From assembly GCF_002920535.1 (NCBI RefSeq), contig NZ_PQSS01000003.1, positions 124,001 through 188,000 on the forward strand: DNA of 64,000 nt, read 5' to 3'. Source of the DNA: Streptomyces sp. Ru71 (GTDB lineage: Bacteria; Actinomycetota; Actinomycetes; Streptomycetales; Streptomycetaceae). The notes below the pieces were generated by a model that worked only from the letters and a program-made list of their open reading frames with translations, was not told where the DNA came from and ran no database searches. The first letter of the stretch is position 1; each line of letters opens with the position of its first letter. A program made the position numbers and the translations under genes. Positions 6,605-45,578 of this stretch are shown here, piece by piece.

Positions 6605-8368
6605 TTACTTCGGCTGCGGCTTGTTCACCGTCAGGTGGAGCTCCTTCAGGCGGGCCGCGTCCAGCTCGGTCGGGGCGCCCATCATCAGGTCCTGGGCGTT
6701 GCCGTTGAGCGGGAAGGCGATGGTCTCGCGGATGTTCGGCTCGTCGGCGAGCAGCATGACGATGCGGTCGACGCCGGGGGCGATGCCGCCGTGCGGCGGG
6801 GCGCCGAAGCGGAACGCGCGCAGCATGCCGGCGAACTCGCGCTCGGTGACCTCACGGTCGTAGCCGGCGATCTCGAACGCCTTGAGCATGATGTCCGGCT
6901 CGTGGTTGCGGATCGCGCCGGAGGACAGCTCGACGCCGTTGCAGACGATGTCGTACTGCCAGGCCAGGATGTCCAGCGGGTCCTGGTTCTCCAAGGCGTC
7001 CATGCCGCCCTGCGGCATCGAGAACGGGTTGTGCGAGAAGTCGATCCGGCCGGTCTCCTCGTCCTTCTCGAACATCGGGAAGTCGACGATCCAGCAGAAG
7101 CGGAAGACGTTCTCCTCGAAGTGGCCGGCGCGCTTGGCGGCCTCGACGCGGACCGCTCCCATGATCTTGGAGACCTCGTCGAACTCGCCCGCGCCGAAGA
7201 ACACGGCGTGGCCGGCCTCCAGGCCGAGGCGCTCGGTGAGGACCTTGACGTTCTCCTCGGTGAGGAACTTCGCGATCGGGCCGGACAGCTGGCCGTCCTC
7301 GCCGACGCGCACCCACGCCAGGCCCTTGGCGCCCTGCGAGACGGCGTAGTCGCCGAGCTGGTCGAAGAACTTGCGGGGCTGGTCCTGGACGGCCGGGACC
7401 GGCAGCGCGCGCACGTGCTTGCCGGCGAACGCCTTGAACTCGCTGCCCTCGAAGACGTCCGTGATGTCGACGAGCTCCAGCTGGGCGCGCAGGTCCGGCT
7501 TGTCGGAGCCGTACTTCAGCATCGCCTCGCGGAACGGGATGCGCGGGAAGGGGGACGTCACATGACGGCCGCCGCCGAACTCCTCGAACAGCTCGGTCAT
7601 CAGCTTCTCGACCGGCTGGAAGACGTCCTCCTGCTCGACGAAGCTCATCTCGATGTCGAGCTGGTAGAACTCGCCCGGCGAGCGGTCGGCGCGGGCGTCC
7701 TCGTCGCGGAAGCACGGCGCGATCTGGAAGTAGCGGTCGAAGCCGGAGATCATCAGCAGCTGCTTGAACTGCTGCGGGGCCTGCGGCAGGGCGTAGAACT
7801 TGCCCGGGTGCAGGCGGGAGGGCACGACGAAGTCGCGGGCGCCCTCGGGGGAGGTGGCCGTCAGGATGGGGGTGGCCATCTCGTTGAAGCCGAGCGCCGT
7901 CATCTTGTGGCGGATGGCGCCGATGACAGCCGTACGCAGCATGATGTTGCGGTGCATGCGCTCGCGGCGCAGGTCCAGGAAGCGGTACTCCAGGCGCCGC
8001 TCCTCGTTGACCCCGTCCTCGGTGTTGATCGTGAAGGGCAGGGGCTGGGCCGCACCGAGCAGCTCGACCTCGCCGACCTCGACCTCGATCTCACCGGTCG
8101 GCAGGTCCGGGTTCACGTTCTCGGTTCCACGTGAAACAACGCGGCCGTCGACGCGGACCGTGGACTCCTTGGAGACCTTGTCCAGGGCCTCGTACGCCTC
8201 GGTGCCGGGGCGGGCCACCAGCTGCGTGATGCCGTAGTGGTCGCGCAGATCGATGAAGAGGATGCCGCCCAGGTCGCGCCGATTGTGCAGCCAGCCACTC
8301 AGCCGGACGTCGGTGCCGACGTCAGAGGCGCGGAGCTCGCCGCAGGTGTGGGACCTGTACCGATGCAT
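6605..8368 (-). CDS. aspS: Aspartyl-tRNA synthetase
   Basis: Class II synthetase that charges tRNA-Asp. The 587-residue protein has an N-terminal OB-fold anticodon-binding domain ([23 protein letters not shown]), class II motif 2 ([12 protein letters not shown]), a bacterial GAD insertion in the middle, and motif 3 at the C-terminus ([21 protein letters not shown]). Length fits bacterial-type AspRS. The ATG at 8368 begins [13 protein letters not shown], the normal start for the family; the ribosome site is weak. A near-parS sequence lies inside the coding region at 8124-8137. Since the enzyme is the long bacterial type, it may also act on tRNA-Asn in species that use the amidotransferase route; sequence alone does not decide this. 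Confidence 0.97.
8124..8137. promoter_or_regulatory. Near-consensus parS site inside aspS
   Basis: GTTCCACGTGAAAC differs from the Streptomyces parS 14-mer GTTTCACGTGAAAC at one position. It lies within the OB-fold part of aspS, where silent changes are possible. Degenerate ParB sites in coding sequence are known near oriC. Binding strength cannot be judged here. Confidence 0.55.
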
Positions 8369-41288: not shown

Positions 41289-41945
41289 TCACCGCGTGGG
41301 GTCGTCCTGCGGCTCCGGCACCCGCACGATCGTGATGACCCGGTCCGTCAACTGCAGCACGCCCACGGACGGATCGTCGTAGCCGAGCACCCGGTGCCCG
41401 CGTACGACGCTCACCACCAGGTCCTGCGTCTCGCGCGGGCTGCGGCCCGCCTCGGCCCTGGTGACCGGCCGCTCCACCAGGTCCAGCCCGCTGCCCTGCT
41501 GGATTAGGTCCTCCATGACCAGTCCCGCCGAGGGGCTGAGCACGGACAGCCCGAGCAGCCGGCCCGCCGCGCCCGCGCTGGTGATGACCTCGTCGGCGCC
41601 CGACTGCTTCAGCAGCGGCGCGTTCTCCTCCTCCCGCACCGCGGCCACGATCGTCGCCTCCGGGTTGAGCTGGCGGGCCGTCAGCGCCACCAGGACGGCC
41701 GTGTCGTCGCGCTGGGTGGCGATGATGATCCGCCCGGCCCGCTGCACTTCCGCCCGGCGCAGCACATCGCTACGGGTGCCGTCGCCGACCACGCCGGTGT
41801 AGCCCTCGGCGGTGGCGGCGTCGACCACCTTCGCCGACGGGTCGATCACGACGACCCGGTCCTTCTTCAGCCCTGTGGCGCACACGGTCCGGATGGCGGA
41901 CCGCCCCTTGGTGCCGAAGCCGACGACAACGGTGTGGTCGCGCAC
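41289..41945 (-). CDS. RCK/TrkA-type NAD-binding protein lacking a channel domain
   Basis: 218 residues from GTG 41945 (MRDHTVVVGFGTKGRSAIRT). TrkA-N Rossmann domain with GFGTKG (9-14) and the acidic VVVIDPSAK strand, then TrkA-C (about 140-215, LVERPVTRAEAGRSPRE...). It is about 50% identical by eye to the C-terminal part of the full K+ channel encoded divergently at 42073, including ATIVAAVREEENAPLLKQSGAD, so the two are paralogues. No pore or membrane helix can be found upstream: only 127 bp separates it from that channel gene, and frames there do not encode TGYGD. Either a true stand-alone regulator or a 5'-deleted remnant. Confidence 0.85.
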   Translation of the reverse strand: MRDHTVVVGFGTKGRSAIRTVCATGLKKDRVVVIDPSAKVVDAATAEGYTGVVGDGTRSDVLRRAEVQRAGRIIIATQRDDTAVLVALTARQLNPEATIVAAVREEENAPLLKQSGADEVITSAGAAGRLLGLSVLSPSAGLVMEDLIQQGSGLDLVERPVTRAEAGRSPRETQDLVVSVVRGHRVLGYDDPSVGVLQLTDRVITIVRVPEPQDDPTR

Positions 41946-42072
41946 GGTGGGCCTCCCGGCTCATGTCGGATCCCGGCGGATCCGGCTCGTGTCTCGTGTT
42001 GGGCCTGACGGGCGGGATCCCGTCCGCAACCATGGTGCCGTCCGAACGGATCACCGAGGCAGGGGGCACACG

Positions 42073-43191
42073 ATGAAGGCCGAGCACCAGCAGAGGCGGG
42101 ACACGGGCAAGCCGTCCCTGCTGCGGTCCGTCTGGTACCGCACGCGCACCGAGGCACGCGACGACGCCGAGGCCGGCCGGACCATCACCATGCCGACCCA
42201 GACCGCCCTGCCCCCGCTGCAGCAGGTGCTGCGCCGCCTCGCCATGGCCCTGCTGGTCCTGCTCGTCACCACCCTGATCGTCTACGCCGACCACGACGGC
42301 TACCGCGACGGCTCGGACAACTCCGTGAGCCTGCTGGACGCGGCCTACTACGCCACCGTCACCCTCTCCACCACCGGCTACGGCGACATCACCCCGGTCA
42401 GCGACACCGCCCGGTTGGTGAACATCCTGGTCATCACGCCCCTGCGCGTGCTGTTCCTGATCATCCTGGTCGGCACCACCCTGGAGGTCCTCACCGAGCG
42501 CACCCGCCAGCAGGTCCGCATCCACCGCTGGCGTGCCCGCACCCGCGACCACGTGGTGGTCATCGGATACGGCACGAAGGGCCGCCACGCCGTGCGGACA
42601 CTCGTCGGGCAGGGCATCGCCAGGCACCGGATCGTCGTGGTGGACGCCCAGCGCAAGGCGGCGAACGCGGCCGCGGACGACGGGCTGGTCTCGGTCACCG
42701 GTGACGCCACCCGGTCCGAGACGCTGCTGAAGGCCGAGGTGCAGCGGGCCGGACGGATCATCGTCGCCCCGCAGCGCGACGACACCGCGACCCTCGTGAC
42801 GCTCACCGCCCGCCAGCTCAACCGGCGCGCGACGATCGTCGCGGCGGTACGGGAGGACGAGAACGCGCCGCTGCTCAAGCAGTCCGGTGCCGACACGGTG
42901 ATCACCACGTCCAGTTCCGCCGGGCGCCTGCTCGGGGTGTCCATGGTGAGTCCGTCCGTGGCCCGGACGCTGGAGGATCTGATGACCCTGGGCAGCGGCC
43001 TGGACCTCGTGGAGCGGCCGGTGACGGCGGAGGAGACCGGGAAGGCGACGAGGGCCTGCCCCGATGTCGTGGTGGCCGTCGTGCGCGGCAAGCAGCTGCT
43101 GGACTACACCGACCCCCGGCTGACCGAACTGCAGGCCGGGGACCGGGTGATCACAGTGACCCGAGCGGTGCCGGTCCCGGAGGAGGACTGA
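42073..43191 (+). CDS. Two-TM potassium channel with RCK domain
   Basis: 372 residues. An N-terminal charged part is followed by TM1 (about 55-74, RLAMALLVLLVTTLIVYADH), the pore helix and selectivity filter T100-T-G-Y-G-D105, and TM2 (about 118-138, LVNILVITPLRVLFLIILVG). The RCK Rossmann domain starts near 158 (RDHVVVIGYGTKGRHAV) and the TrkA-C part follows. K+ or Ca2+/nucleotide binding in the RCK ring would gate the pore, as in MthK-like channels. ATG 42073 with AGGGGG 6 nt upstream is chosen. It is divergent from the RCK-only paralogue and ends 22 bp before the first parS site. Confidence 0.95.
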   Translation: MKAEHQQRRDTGKPSLLRSVWYRTRTEARDDAEAGRTITMPTQTALPPLQQVLRRLAMALLVLLVTTLIVYADHDGYRDGSDNSVSLLDAAYYATVTLSTTGYGDITPVSDTARLVNILVITPLRVLFLIILVGTTLEVLTERTRQQVRIHRWRARTRDHVVVIGYGTKGRHAVRTLVGQGIARHRIVVVDAQRKAANAAADDGLVSVTGDATRSETLLKAEVQRAGRIIVAPQRDDTATLVTLTARQLNRRATIVAAVREDENAPLLKQSGADTVITTSSSAGRLLGVSMVSPSVARTLEDLMTLGSGLDLVERPVTAEETGKATRACPDVVVAVVRGKQLLDYTDPRLTELQAGDRVITVTRAVPVPEED

Positions 43192-43213: not shown

Positions 43214-43227
43214 GTTTCACGTGAAAC
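43214..43227. promoter_or_regulatory. parS site 1
   Basis: Perfect 14-bp palindrome GTTTCACGTGAAAC, the Streptomyces ParB-binding consensus, in the gap between the convergent channel and moeA genes. Confidence 0.93.
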
Positions 43228-43260
43228 GGGCCAGTCTCCGAAACGGGCCGGATGGGCGAT

Positions 43261-43274
43261 GTTTCACGTGAAAC
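43261..43274. promoter_or_regulatory. parS site 2, overlapping the end of moeA
   Basis: Second perfect GTTTCACGTGAAAC, 47 bp after the first, flanked by T and A to give the full 16-bp form. Read on the minus strand it encodes the last residues (Cys-Phe-Thr) and the TGA stop of moeA, so the gene end and the partition site share sequence. Confidence 0.93.
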
Positions 43275-44664
43275 AGACACCGATCCCCGCCGTCGCCCAC
43301 GGCAGGTCCAGCATCTCCGTCTCCTGCCCCTGATCGGCTCCGCCCGGCGGGACGACGGCGAGGGCATCGGCCGCCGCGATGCCGCGCAGCATCGCCGGGC
43401 CGTTGTAGTGCAGCGGCACGGCCTGATCGCCCCGCAGCACGACGGGCACGAGCCGTGTGTCGTTCGGATGTCCCTGCACCTGGTCCCGCAGCGGCAGCGT
43501 GTACCGCTCGGGGACCGGGTGGGCCGCGAGCGCCCGCAGCAGCGGCTCGGCGAGCGTGAGCAGGCCTGACACGGCGGCCAGCGGGTTGCCGGGCAGTCCG
43601 ACGAGGTACCGCCCGTCCGTGAGTCGGGCGAGCAGCATCGGGTGCCCGGGGCGCACCCTGACACCGTCCACCAGCAGCTCGGCGTCGATCCGGCGCAGCG
43701 TGGGGTGGACATGGTCGACGGGTCCGGCGGCGGTTCCGCCGGTGGTGACGATCAGGTCGGCCTCGGACGTCGTGACGGCCGTGTACAGCGCCTCGGCGTC
43801 GTCGCCGAGCCGGCGCACCGAGGTGACCTCGGCGCCCAGTGCGCGCAGCCACGGCGGCAGCAGCGGGCCGAGGGCGTCCCGGATCAGACCGTCGTGCGGC
43901 AGCCCTTCGGTGAGCAGTTCGTCCCCGAGGACGAGGAGTTCGGCGCGCGGCCGGCGTACGGCGGTGAGGGCGTCGTATCCGGCGGCGGCGGCCAGGCCGA
44001 GCACCGCCGGAGTGACGAGGGCGCCGGCCGGGAGCAGCTGGTCCCCGCTGCGGCACTCCTGGCCCCGTGGGCGGATGTCCTGGCCGGGGATGATCTCCCG
44101 GGTGGCGTGCAGCCGGTCCTTGTCGTCGGTGCGGCCGTGTTCGCTGCGCAGCACGGCCGTGGTGTCCGCGGGCACACGGGCGCCGGTGGCGATGCGCACG
44201 GCCTCGCCGTCGGCGAGGGGTGCGGGTTCGGCGTGCCCGGCGAGCGCTCCGGTCGCGCGCACGTCCCACGGGCCCGGTCCGGCGACGGCCCAGCCGTCCA
44301 TCGCGGAGGTGTCGAAGGAGGGCAGGTCGGTCAGGGCGGTGAGCGGGGCGGCCAGGGCCAGGCCGAGAGCGTCGGCCAGGGGGACGGAGACCGTGCGGTC
44401 ACGCGTGTCACGTAGCCGTCCGGCACGGGCGGCGACGGCCCGGGCCTCGGGCCAGGGGGTGGCCCTGTGGCGGGCGTGCGGGTCGGGGCGGCCGTGCCGG
44501 CCGGGCGGCTCGGTCCGGGAGGCGGGAGCGGGCACCTGGTCGCCGCGCTCTCCCCGGCCGGTCCCGGGGGAGTCCGTACCGGCCGGTTCCTTCACCAGGG
44601 CGAGCGCCTCCTCGACGTCGAGGTCGTCGGCGTCCCGCTCGTTCCGGACACCACGGGCGGTCAT
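43264..44664 (-). CDS. moeA: Molybdopterin molybdenumtransferase
   Basis: Inserts molybdate into molybdopterin-AMP to form molybdenum cofactor. 466 residues, with a charged N-terminal tail (about 1-75) not usual in E. coli MoeA. The family parts are MoeA domain 1/2 (SFDTSAMDGWAVAGPG), TGARVPADTTAVLRSEH, the MPT-binding site DLIVTTGGTAAGPVDHVHPTLRRI and SGLLTLAEPLLRALAAHPVPERYTL. The start overlaps the mobA stop (ATGA), so it is the last gene of a cofactor pair. Its stop codon lies inside parS site 2. Confidence 0.92.
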   Translation of the reverse strand: MTARGVRNERDADDLDVEEALALVKEPAGTDSPGTGRGERGDQVPAPASRTEPPGRHGRPDPHARHRATPWPEARAVAARAGRLRDTRDRTVSVPLADALGLALAAPLTALTDLPSFDTSAMDGWAVAGPGPWDVRATGALAGHAEPAPLADGEAVRIATGARVPADTTAVLRSEHGRTDDKDRLHATREIIPGQDIRPRGQECRSGDQLLPAGALVTPAVLGLAAAAGYDALTAVRRPRAELLVLGDELLTEGLPHDGLIRDALGPLLPPWLRALGAEVTSVRRLGDDAEALYTAVTTSEADLIVTTGGTAAGPVDHVHPTLRRIDAELLVDGVRVRPGHPMLLARLTDGRYLVGLPGNPLAAVSGLLTLAEPLLRALAAHPVPERYTLPLRDQVQGHPNDTRLVPVVLRGDQAVPLHYNGPAMLRGIAAADALAVVPPGGADQGQETEMLDLPWATAGIGVCFT

Positions 44665-45578
44665 CCGGCGTCCGGGCGGGTGTCGGGCGTGGCGTCGGGG
44701 GCCACGTCGGGCTTGTCGTCGCCTTCGCCGGCCCAGCGCTGGGCCAGGGCGGCGGCCTTGCGGGCGGCGTCGGCGACGGCCTCCGGGCCGCCTCCGGCAC
44801 GGGCGGCGGCGTAGCCGACGAGGAAGGTGGTCAGCGGGGCGGCGGGCCGGGCGACGCCGTGCGCGGCGTCACGGGCGAGGTCGAGCAGGACGCCGGTGTC
44901 GACGTCGAGGTCGATGCCCAGCTCGTCCTTGACCGTGGAGATCCATTCATCCAACACGTGCCCATGCTCCCTGATGCGTGCTCTGGCGGTGGCGATGTCG
45001 TCCCAGGTGTCGCAGTCGAAGGACGCGACCGGGTCGGTGATGCGAGTGAGGTCGAGGCGGGCGGTGAGCCGCCGCAGGGGCAGGCCGGTGAGGGCGCCGT
45101 GCTCGGTGTGGAGGCGCGTGAGGGCGCCGCGCAGGCGGTCGGCGCGGTAGGCGGCGACGAGGGGCTGGTCACGGCCGTCGGGGTCGGTGAGCAGCACGCC
45201 GTCGGCCGGGGTGTCGCGCAGCGCGGCCAGCAGGCGGGTCACGGTGTGCCGGTCGAGGAAGGGCAGGTCGGCGGAGAGCAGCAGCACCCGGTCGGCGGCG
45301 GTGTGCCGCAGTCCGGCGCCGAGTGCGGCGAGCGGTCCGCCGCCGGGTGGTTCCTCCCGTGCCCAGGTGACGGGCCGGGAGGTGGGCCGGGGGTCGGCGA
45401 CCACGACGGTGGTGCCTGCGCCGGCGCAGGCCGCCAGGACCCGGTCGAGGAGGGCGCGGGCGCCCACGCGTACCCCGGGTTTGTCCGCGCCGCCGAGCCG
45501 GCGGGCGGCACCCCCGGCCAGGACGACGGCGTCGTAGGCGCTGCCGTCGCCGGGGTCGGGGGACTCGTAGGCGGTCAC
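44661..45578 (-). CDS. mobA: MobA-like molybdenum cofactor guanylyltransferase fused to a DUF6457-like domain
   Basis: 305 residues. N-terminal (about 1-195) nucleotidyltransferase with the GTP motif VVLAGGAARRLGGADKPGVRVG and the metal-binding ADLPFLDRHTVTRL. C-terminal (about 205-305) helical domain (HVLDEWISTVKDELGIDLDVDTGVLLDLARDAAHGVARPAAPLTTFLVGYAAARAGG) that matches the small actinobacterial DUF6457 protein, normally found separately or fused in this way. It would attach GMP to molybdopterin. It follows bkdC2 by 127 bp and overlaps moeA by four bases. Confidence 0.88.
   Translation of the reverse strand: MTAYESPDPGDGSAYDAVVLAGGAARRLGGADKPGVRVGARALLDRVLAACAGAGTTVVVADPRPTSRPVTWAREEPPGGGPLAALGAGLRHTAADRVLLLSADLPFLDRHTVTRLLAALRDTPADGVLLTDPDGRDQPLVAAYRADRLRGALTRLHTEHGALTGLPLRRLTARLDLTRITDPVASFDCDTWDDIATARARIREHGHVLDEWISTVKDELGIDLDVDTGVLLDLARDAAHGVARPAAPLTTFLVGYAAARAGGGPEAVADAARKAAALAQRWAGEGDDKPDVAPDATPDTRPDAG

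Follow-up and report, generated by a model that had tools for sequence, protein, structure and literature searches.

A conserved parS site that ends moeA in Streptomyces and apparently starts the next gene in most relatives

Overlaps of the ATGA and GTGA type, in which a stop and a start codon share four nucleotides, are a form of translational coupling, and parS, the site to which ParB binds, can lie within coding sequence, as does the intragenic parS of Bacillus subtilis spo0J. In Streptomyces venezuelae, ParB ChIP-seq is reported to show 16–17 bound parS sites (PMC4852455, PMC12511625), and a figure legend states that two parS pairs lie too close together to be resolved (PMC4852455). In Pseudomonas aeruginosa, parS3 and parS4 adjoin promoters and are described in connection with promoter repression (PMC5521831), while corynebacterial Glp, a MoeA paralogue, is described as acting in cell division (PMC10522489). 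No report of parS serving as a start or stop codon was found in the literature searched, mostly titles and the openings of abstracts, and the supplementary parS tables of PMC8743542 may imply such positions. Here, we describe a known element, parS, in a conserved and multiply coded setting at the end of moeA.

The window is a stretch of 64,000 nucleotides from Streptomyces sp. Ru71, equivalent to positions 124001-188000 of contig C3 of the source genome (G000). It contains two exact copies of the 14-mer GTTTCACGTGAAAC, assigned to neither strand, at 43214-43227 and 43261-43274, where the earlier note had placed two perfect parS sites; they are spaced 47 bp start to start, with a gap of 33 bp. 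The copy at 43261 coincides with the 3′ end of moeA (43264-44664, minus strand; MoeA_N, MoCF_biosynth and MoeA_C domains). The minus strand reads (T)GT TTC ACG TGA, with the TGA of moeA inside the site and a GTG that begins one base earlier (GTGA), and the register read from the sequence bears out the claim that this parS supplies the last codons and the stop of moeA, which ends in Cys-Phe-Thr (CFT*). The other copy lies in the space separating moeA from a channel gene, whose 3′ ends converge there. Upstream, a gene for a MobA-like NTP transferase with DUF6457 (44661-45578, minus strand) meets moeA in a 4-nt ATGA stop/start overlap, as read from the ORF coordinates. A one-mismatch copy, GTTCCACGTGAAAC, which had been reported in aspS, was found at 8124-8137 (neither strand assigned), where it encodes VVSRGTE in the frame of a minus-strand ORF (6605-8368) that we take, by eye, to be aspS.

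With up to three mismatches allowed, the window holds three matches to the 14-mer (two exact and one with a single mismatch), the shuffle mean being 0.85, and three or more were reached by 6 of 100 window shuffles; chance is excluded by the exactness of the sites and their genome-wide clustering, not by this loose-match count. The whole genome contains 19 exact and six one-mismatch copies, and the reversed pattern, used as a control, gave none. Rather than being scattered evenly, all 19 exact copies fall on two of the 192 contigs, 14 on C3 (121731-264849) and five on C34 (50493-77183), the latter all within the last 29 kb of a contig that probably adjoins C3. Four of the six one-mismatch copies are on these two contigs and two on others (G000:C1:20241 and G000:C42:10555). 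A strict DnaA-box scan gave no oriC mark; with one mismatch allowed, a DnaA-box-like cluster appears at about C3:224500 (eight matches in bin C3:224500-224999) and, judged by this cluster alone, suggests that oriC lies about 57 kb from the moeA parS. A cognate ParB is encoded, with ParB_N, HTH_ParB and ParB_C in one ORF of L022, and parB of the source genome itself contains a parS. Exact parS is present in all 101 genomes of the genus, in 6-36 copies each, with the reversed control at zero in every one. The two 14-mers of the window are thus most probably chromosomal parS sites near oriC, at which ParB would be expected to load. Among 61 genomes of the family, three from one other genus (g3: G138, G141 and G148) are without any exact parS.

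The C-terminal 200 residues of MoeA served as the query against 101 genomes of the genus, including its own, of which 99 matched; the match in G048 is a weak paralogue only, and the resulting genus set comprises 98 loci, the regions of 97 relatives and the window. A named set of 80 loci consists of the best matches to the window MoeA (79 from Streptomyces and one from an ‘Actinobacteria bacterium’); it leans to near kin and overlaps the genus set (L216 and L072, for instance), and the two are not independent because some species are common to both. A family set of 45 loci combines five from Streptomyces with 40 from 16 other genera (40 of 51 other-genus genomes). An exact parS stands at -8 relative to the moeA TGA in 72/98 genus loci and 77/80 named loci, and in 0/40 loci from other genera, a chromosomal position conserved in Streptomyces relatives; in the genus and the named set alike, one more locus carries a one-mismatch site at the stop. 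Of the 29 loci lacking the exact stop site, two are these one-mismatch cases, seven have an exact parS elsewhere, 42-97 nt downstream, and 20, all in the genus set of 98, are without any parS, exact or one-mismatch, in the interval that extends from 300 nt before the moeA stop to 250 nt after it. The one-mismatch copy of L193 is accompanied by an exact copy at +13, and that of L060 is a decayed stop copy with no exact copy nearby. L060 and the 20 loci without parS mean that the site is neither universal at moeA nor always replaced.

In most relatives, the site has the layout GTTTCAC-GTG-AAAC, where the GTG is the apparent start of the next gene. This gene encodes a K+ channel with Ion_trans_2 and TrkA_N domains (one representative) and an N-terminus that mostly reads MKLPG[HQ]DA. 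By BLAST, the channel start falls in the GTGA of an exact parS in 61/98 genus and 61/80 named loci, and this rule undercounts slightly, as L080 starts in the GTGA with a divergent N-terminus. The 11 of 72 exact genus loci without a BLAST-placed GTGA channel start include L080 and also L076, whose frame soon breaks. Conversely, nine genus loci, all belonging to the 20 without any nearby parS, keep the GTGA channel start, and eight of them read GTGAAGC there. Either use, as ParB site or as GTGA start, therefore occurs without the other. The earlier note was right about the stop codon; what it missed is this apparent start-codon role in most relatives, and a second junction, at cydCD, described below. 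Both the channel and the cydCD starts are assigned from conservation.

The GTGA-coupled downstream start is absent from the window, where a K+ channel-like gene (Ion_trans_2 and TrkA_N; 41812-43191, plus strand, with a true start probably downstream of 41812) is convergent with moeA, and parS is consequently used as a stop only. This channel is 64% identical to the channel found after moeA in the relative L070. A TrkA_N-only ORF on the minus strand (41289-41945), which shares 80% identity with residues 128-348 of the L070 channel, may be what is left of a channel formerly downstream of moeA, and the convergent layout of the window would then be derived. This layout could also be old, since convergent channels exist without parS (in L122 and L135, and in outgroups that include L168 and L277-L279). 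Across 41289-43191, the full channel gene stands head to head with the TrkA_N-only ORF, a layout shared by L060, L064, L072, L186, L191, L196, L206, L213, L216, L219, L227, L252 and L157, by L122, which has no parS there, and by L266 from another genus; a convergent channel alone is found in L135, L147, L168, L269 and L277-L279.

The start of cydCD is the other recurrent case, seen in seven of nine surveyed genomes, and there, too, parS appears to provide the GTG start. The gene was identified by two ABC transporter halves beside a Cyt_bd_oxida_II gene. A parS followed by MKP[IV]DPR is present in 85/101 genus genomes (control 0). Three of the 16 genomes without this pattern were inspected: G059 keeps the site exact but differs in a residue that follows it (L349), the site of G080 has two mismatches (L351) and G088 has no such site (L364). 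Among cydCD loci, 32/35 from Streptomyces and 5/20 from other genera are exact, and five more of these 20 carry GTTCCACGTGAAAC, shares that lean upward because the loci are the best 30 matches per search. Where there is no parS-like site (at least six mismatches), 9/11 loci start with [GTG/ATG]-AA[AG]-C at the same residue. A parallel role of parS in the stop of cydB was considered and rejected, as 0/55 cydB ends have parS at -8. In the cydB-cydCD gap, at least two exact parS are found in 24/35 Streptomyces loci (L322-L355 and L364), and L329 has four.

The gene context of parS was surveyed for 110 exact sites, comprising the 19 of the source genome, all those of G013, G036, G093, G096 and G081 and, outside the genus, all of G104 and G114 and four of the five of G106. 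By a rough gene call, 79 lie between genes (34 convergent, 42 codirectional and three divergent), 28 within genes and three at edges; background gaps on the origin contigs of the source genome, a single genome, are 32 convergent, 74 codirectional and 33 divergent. This suggests that parS avoids divergent promoter regions, with the qualification that homologous sites do not count independently. The moeA and cydCD junctions both sit inside gene strings, not at divergent promoters. Some sites are centred in long inverted repeats whose arms differ from site to site: arms of at least 6 bp flank 20/110 sites (for example, G000:C3:246470 and 246511, L299:9097, L308:5949, L310:2047 and L317:3147), compared with a mean of 2.1 and a maximum of 7 in 200 shuffles that re-paired the flanks. 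With 20-nt flanks, 20 sites pass again, 11 of them between convergent genes (rough gene call). These resemble terminator hairpins that carry parS at their tip, again with homologous sites that are not independent.

A MoeA tree with 138 rows explains the presence of the site (exact or with one mismatch) by three changes at the fewest; many of its deep branches are weak, 46 of 135 being open. The change count by itself does not distinguish gain from loss; as the site is missing from 40 outgroup rows and from 20 Streptomyces loci, mostly basal, the simplest reading is one gain and few losses. Because nine of the 20 loci without a nearby parS keep the GTGA, parS at this junction was probably gained later than the overlap. 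We consider it highly probable, from sequence comparison, that the moeA parS is a ParB site that was born on a GTGA stop/start junction and then kept. The overlap of the channel GTG with the moeA TGA would be the older feature, as in basal Streptomyces that have it without parS, and parS would have arisen there through a few substitutions: its right half, GTGAAAC, reads as a GTG start with a Lys codon behind it, and its left half, GTTTCAC, fills the 7 nt that separate this start from a G-rich ribosome-binding stretch further upstream. The new site would then have been retained for ParB, and the Cys-Phe-Thr end of MoeA would be its by-product. The window, with its channel convergent to moeA, lacks the start role, and parS persists there as a doublet; the cydCD start apparently shows the same dual use. 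Upstream of the site, ribosome-binding complementarity is only slightly stronger where the start is used: in the genus set the medians are -9.6 kcal/mol for the 61 loci that use it and -9.2 kcal/mol for the 11 that do not (p = 0.012), or -11.1 and -9.0 with the named set added, and so small a difference in the genus set weighs against this account.

A weaker form of this explanation keeps the same ParB site and holds that an ordinary gene-end parS was inherited by common descent, its overlap with codons being a neutral accident. A single gain does account for most of the distribution, and most surveyed parS (79/110 by the rough gene call) lie between genes; the constancy of the register while the length of the upstream linker changes, and the conserved start-codon use at the unrelated cydCD locus, speak against an accident, and we regard this version as possible and rather doubtful. 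Far less probable is that the 14-mer is mainly a conserved translation signal, a coupled stop/start with a small hairpin, whose identity with parS is incidental. The exact placement on the GTGA junction in most relatives would suit such a signal, and the RNA can form a weak 5-bp hairpin (-2.3 kcal/mol). However, the GTGA start does without the 14-mer in nine genus loci, the 14-mer does without a BLAST-placed GTGA channel start in 11/72 (L080 and L076 being qualified as above), and the loss of the stop copy in seven loci coincides with another exact parS 42-97 nt downstream.

That MoeA itself requires a Cys-Phe-Thr C-terminus, from which the DNA match would follow, is scarcely credible even with CFT in 146 of the 149 tails that carry the exact site, since the match extends past the stop codon and includes a Lys AAA (12/373 Lys codons in moeA bodies and 171/1406 in channel bodies), the residues ahead of CFT vary in length and sequence with the parS register kept regardless, and the tail (GIGVCFT*) falls beyond the part of the protein that matches MoeA_C (residues 390-452 of 466). 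The other codons forced by parS are not rare (Cys TGT 8/24 and Thr ACG 507/1866). The suggestion that selection on parS fixes the MoeA C-terminus agrees well with the 178 genus and named loci: the 149 with an exact site end in CFT (146) or RFT (3), two have one mismatch, and just one of the 27 others ends in CFT. The seven loci whose parS now lies downstream have the tails CFT (L074, now TGC), CFV, ACF, GSR, GAS, GIA and GNA. The MoeA tail mostly drifts once the stop parS is gone, and it is therefore parS, not MoeA function, that fixes Cys-Phe-Thr; conservation of this end for the protein's sake was rejected.

Where several parS lie together, short frames can connect them. In the window, a putative frame of 16 codons (43217-43267, minus strand) opens at the GTG inside the moeA parS, closes at the TGA inside the neighbouring copy and would encode VKHRPSGPFRRLARFT*. 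Among 15 distinct moeA ends with multiple exact parS, the frame opened by the first GTG closes at a TGA lying within a later exact parS in 11, the window included and L136, where it ends in a one-mismatch site, scored as a miss; the same holds in 5/5 loci where a later exact parS contains the BLAST-placed channel start. As the probability of chance is not small with several sites, and sister species are not independent, these mini-frames are a lead only. The moeA end of L072 (the same locus as L216) has five exact parS in 115 bp, with spacings of 23, 23, 32 and 23, all of which keep the GTG-to-TGA frame. A helical-phase rule for doublets was unsupported: 18 spacings below 100 bp span 21-57 bp, with no clear phasing by eye. 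A broader conjecture, which we think improbable, is that parS is recruited to translation junctions, with GTG-Lys starts as a recurrent birthplace, that ParB loading at the moeA/channel and cydB/cydCD junctions links expression of a K+ channel and a cytochrome bd assembly transporter to assembly of the segregation complex, and that, where parS has multiplied, short ‘VK...FT*’ frames between the GTG of one copy and the TGA of a later one relay the coupling.

The bases of a bacterial centromere can thus end one gene and, by the signs in the sequence, start the next, an arrangement that held across most Streptomyces loci examined. It offers a natural system in which to ask whether ParB loading alters the expression of genes at operon junctions and by what route new parS sites arise, and it calls for caution, as protein termini near parS may be conserved for DNA reasons alone.

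Compared with known systems, the sites described here resemble the chromosomal parS of Streptomyces coelicolor and S. venezuelae, which, as far as the available descriptions go, are palindromes of the same kind, numerous in each genome and clustered near oriC, with some close pairs; they differ in that those descriptions, in the parts covered, contain no statement of a site as a stop or start codon. The meeting of parS with gene-expression signals recalls parS3 and parS4 of P. aeruginosa as outlined there, the signal being a promoter in that case and a translation start or stop in this one. Like the parS of B. subtilis spo0J and that in the parB of the source genome, the moeA site is a ParB site within coding sequence; those encode internal peptide, whereas the moeA parS provides the codons at the edge of one gene or of two. 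Finally, the junction shares the 4-nt overlap of ATGA/GTGA coupling and departs from it in that these four bases double as the core of a centromere site.
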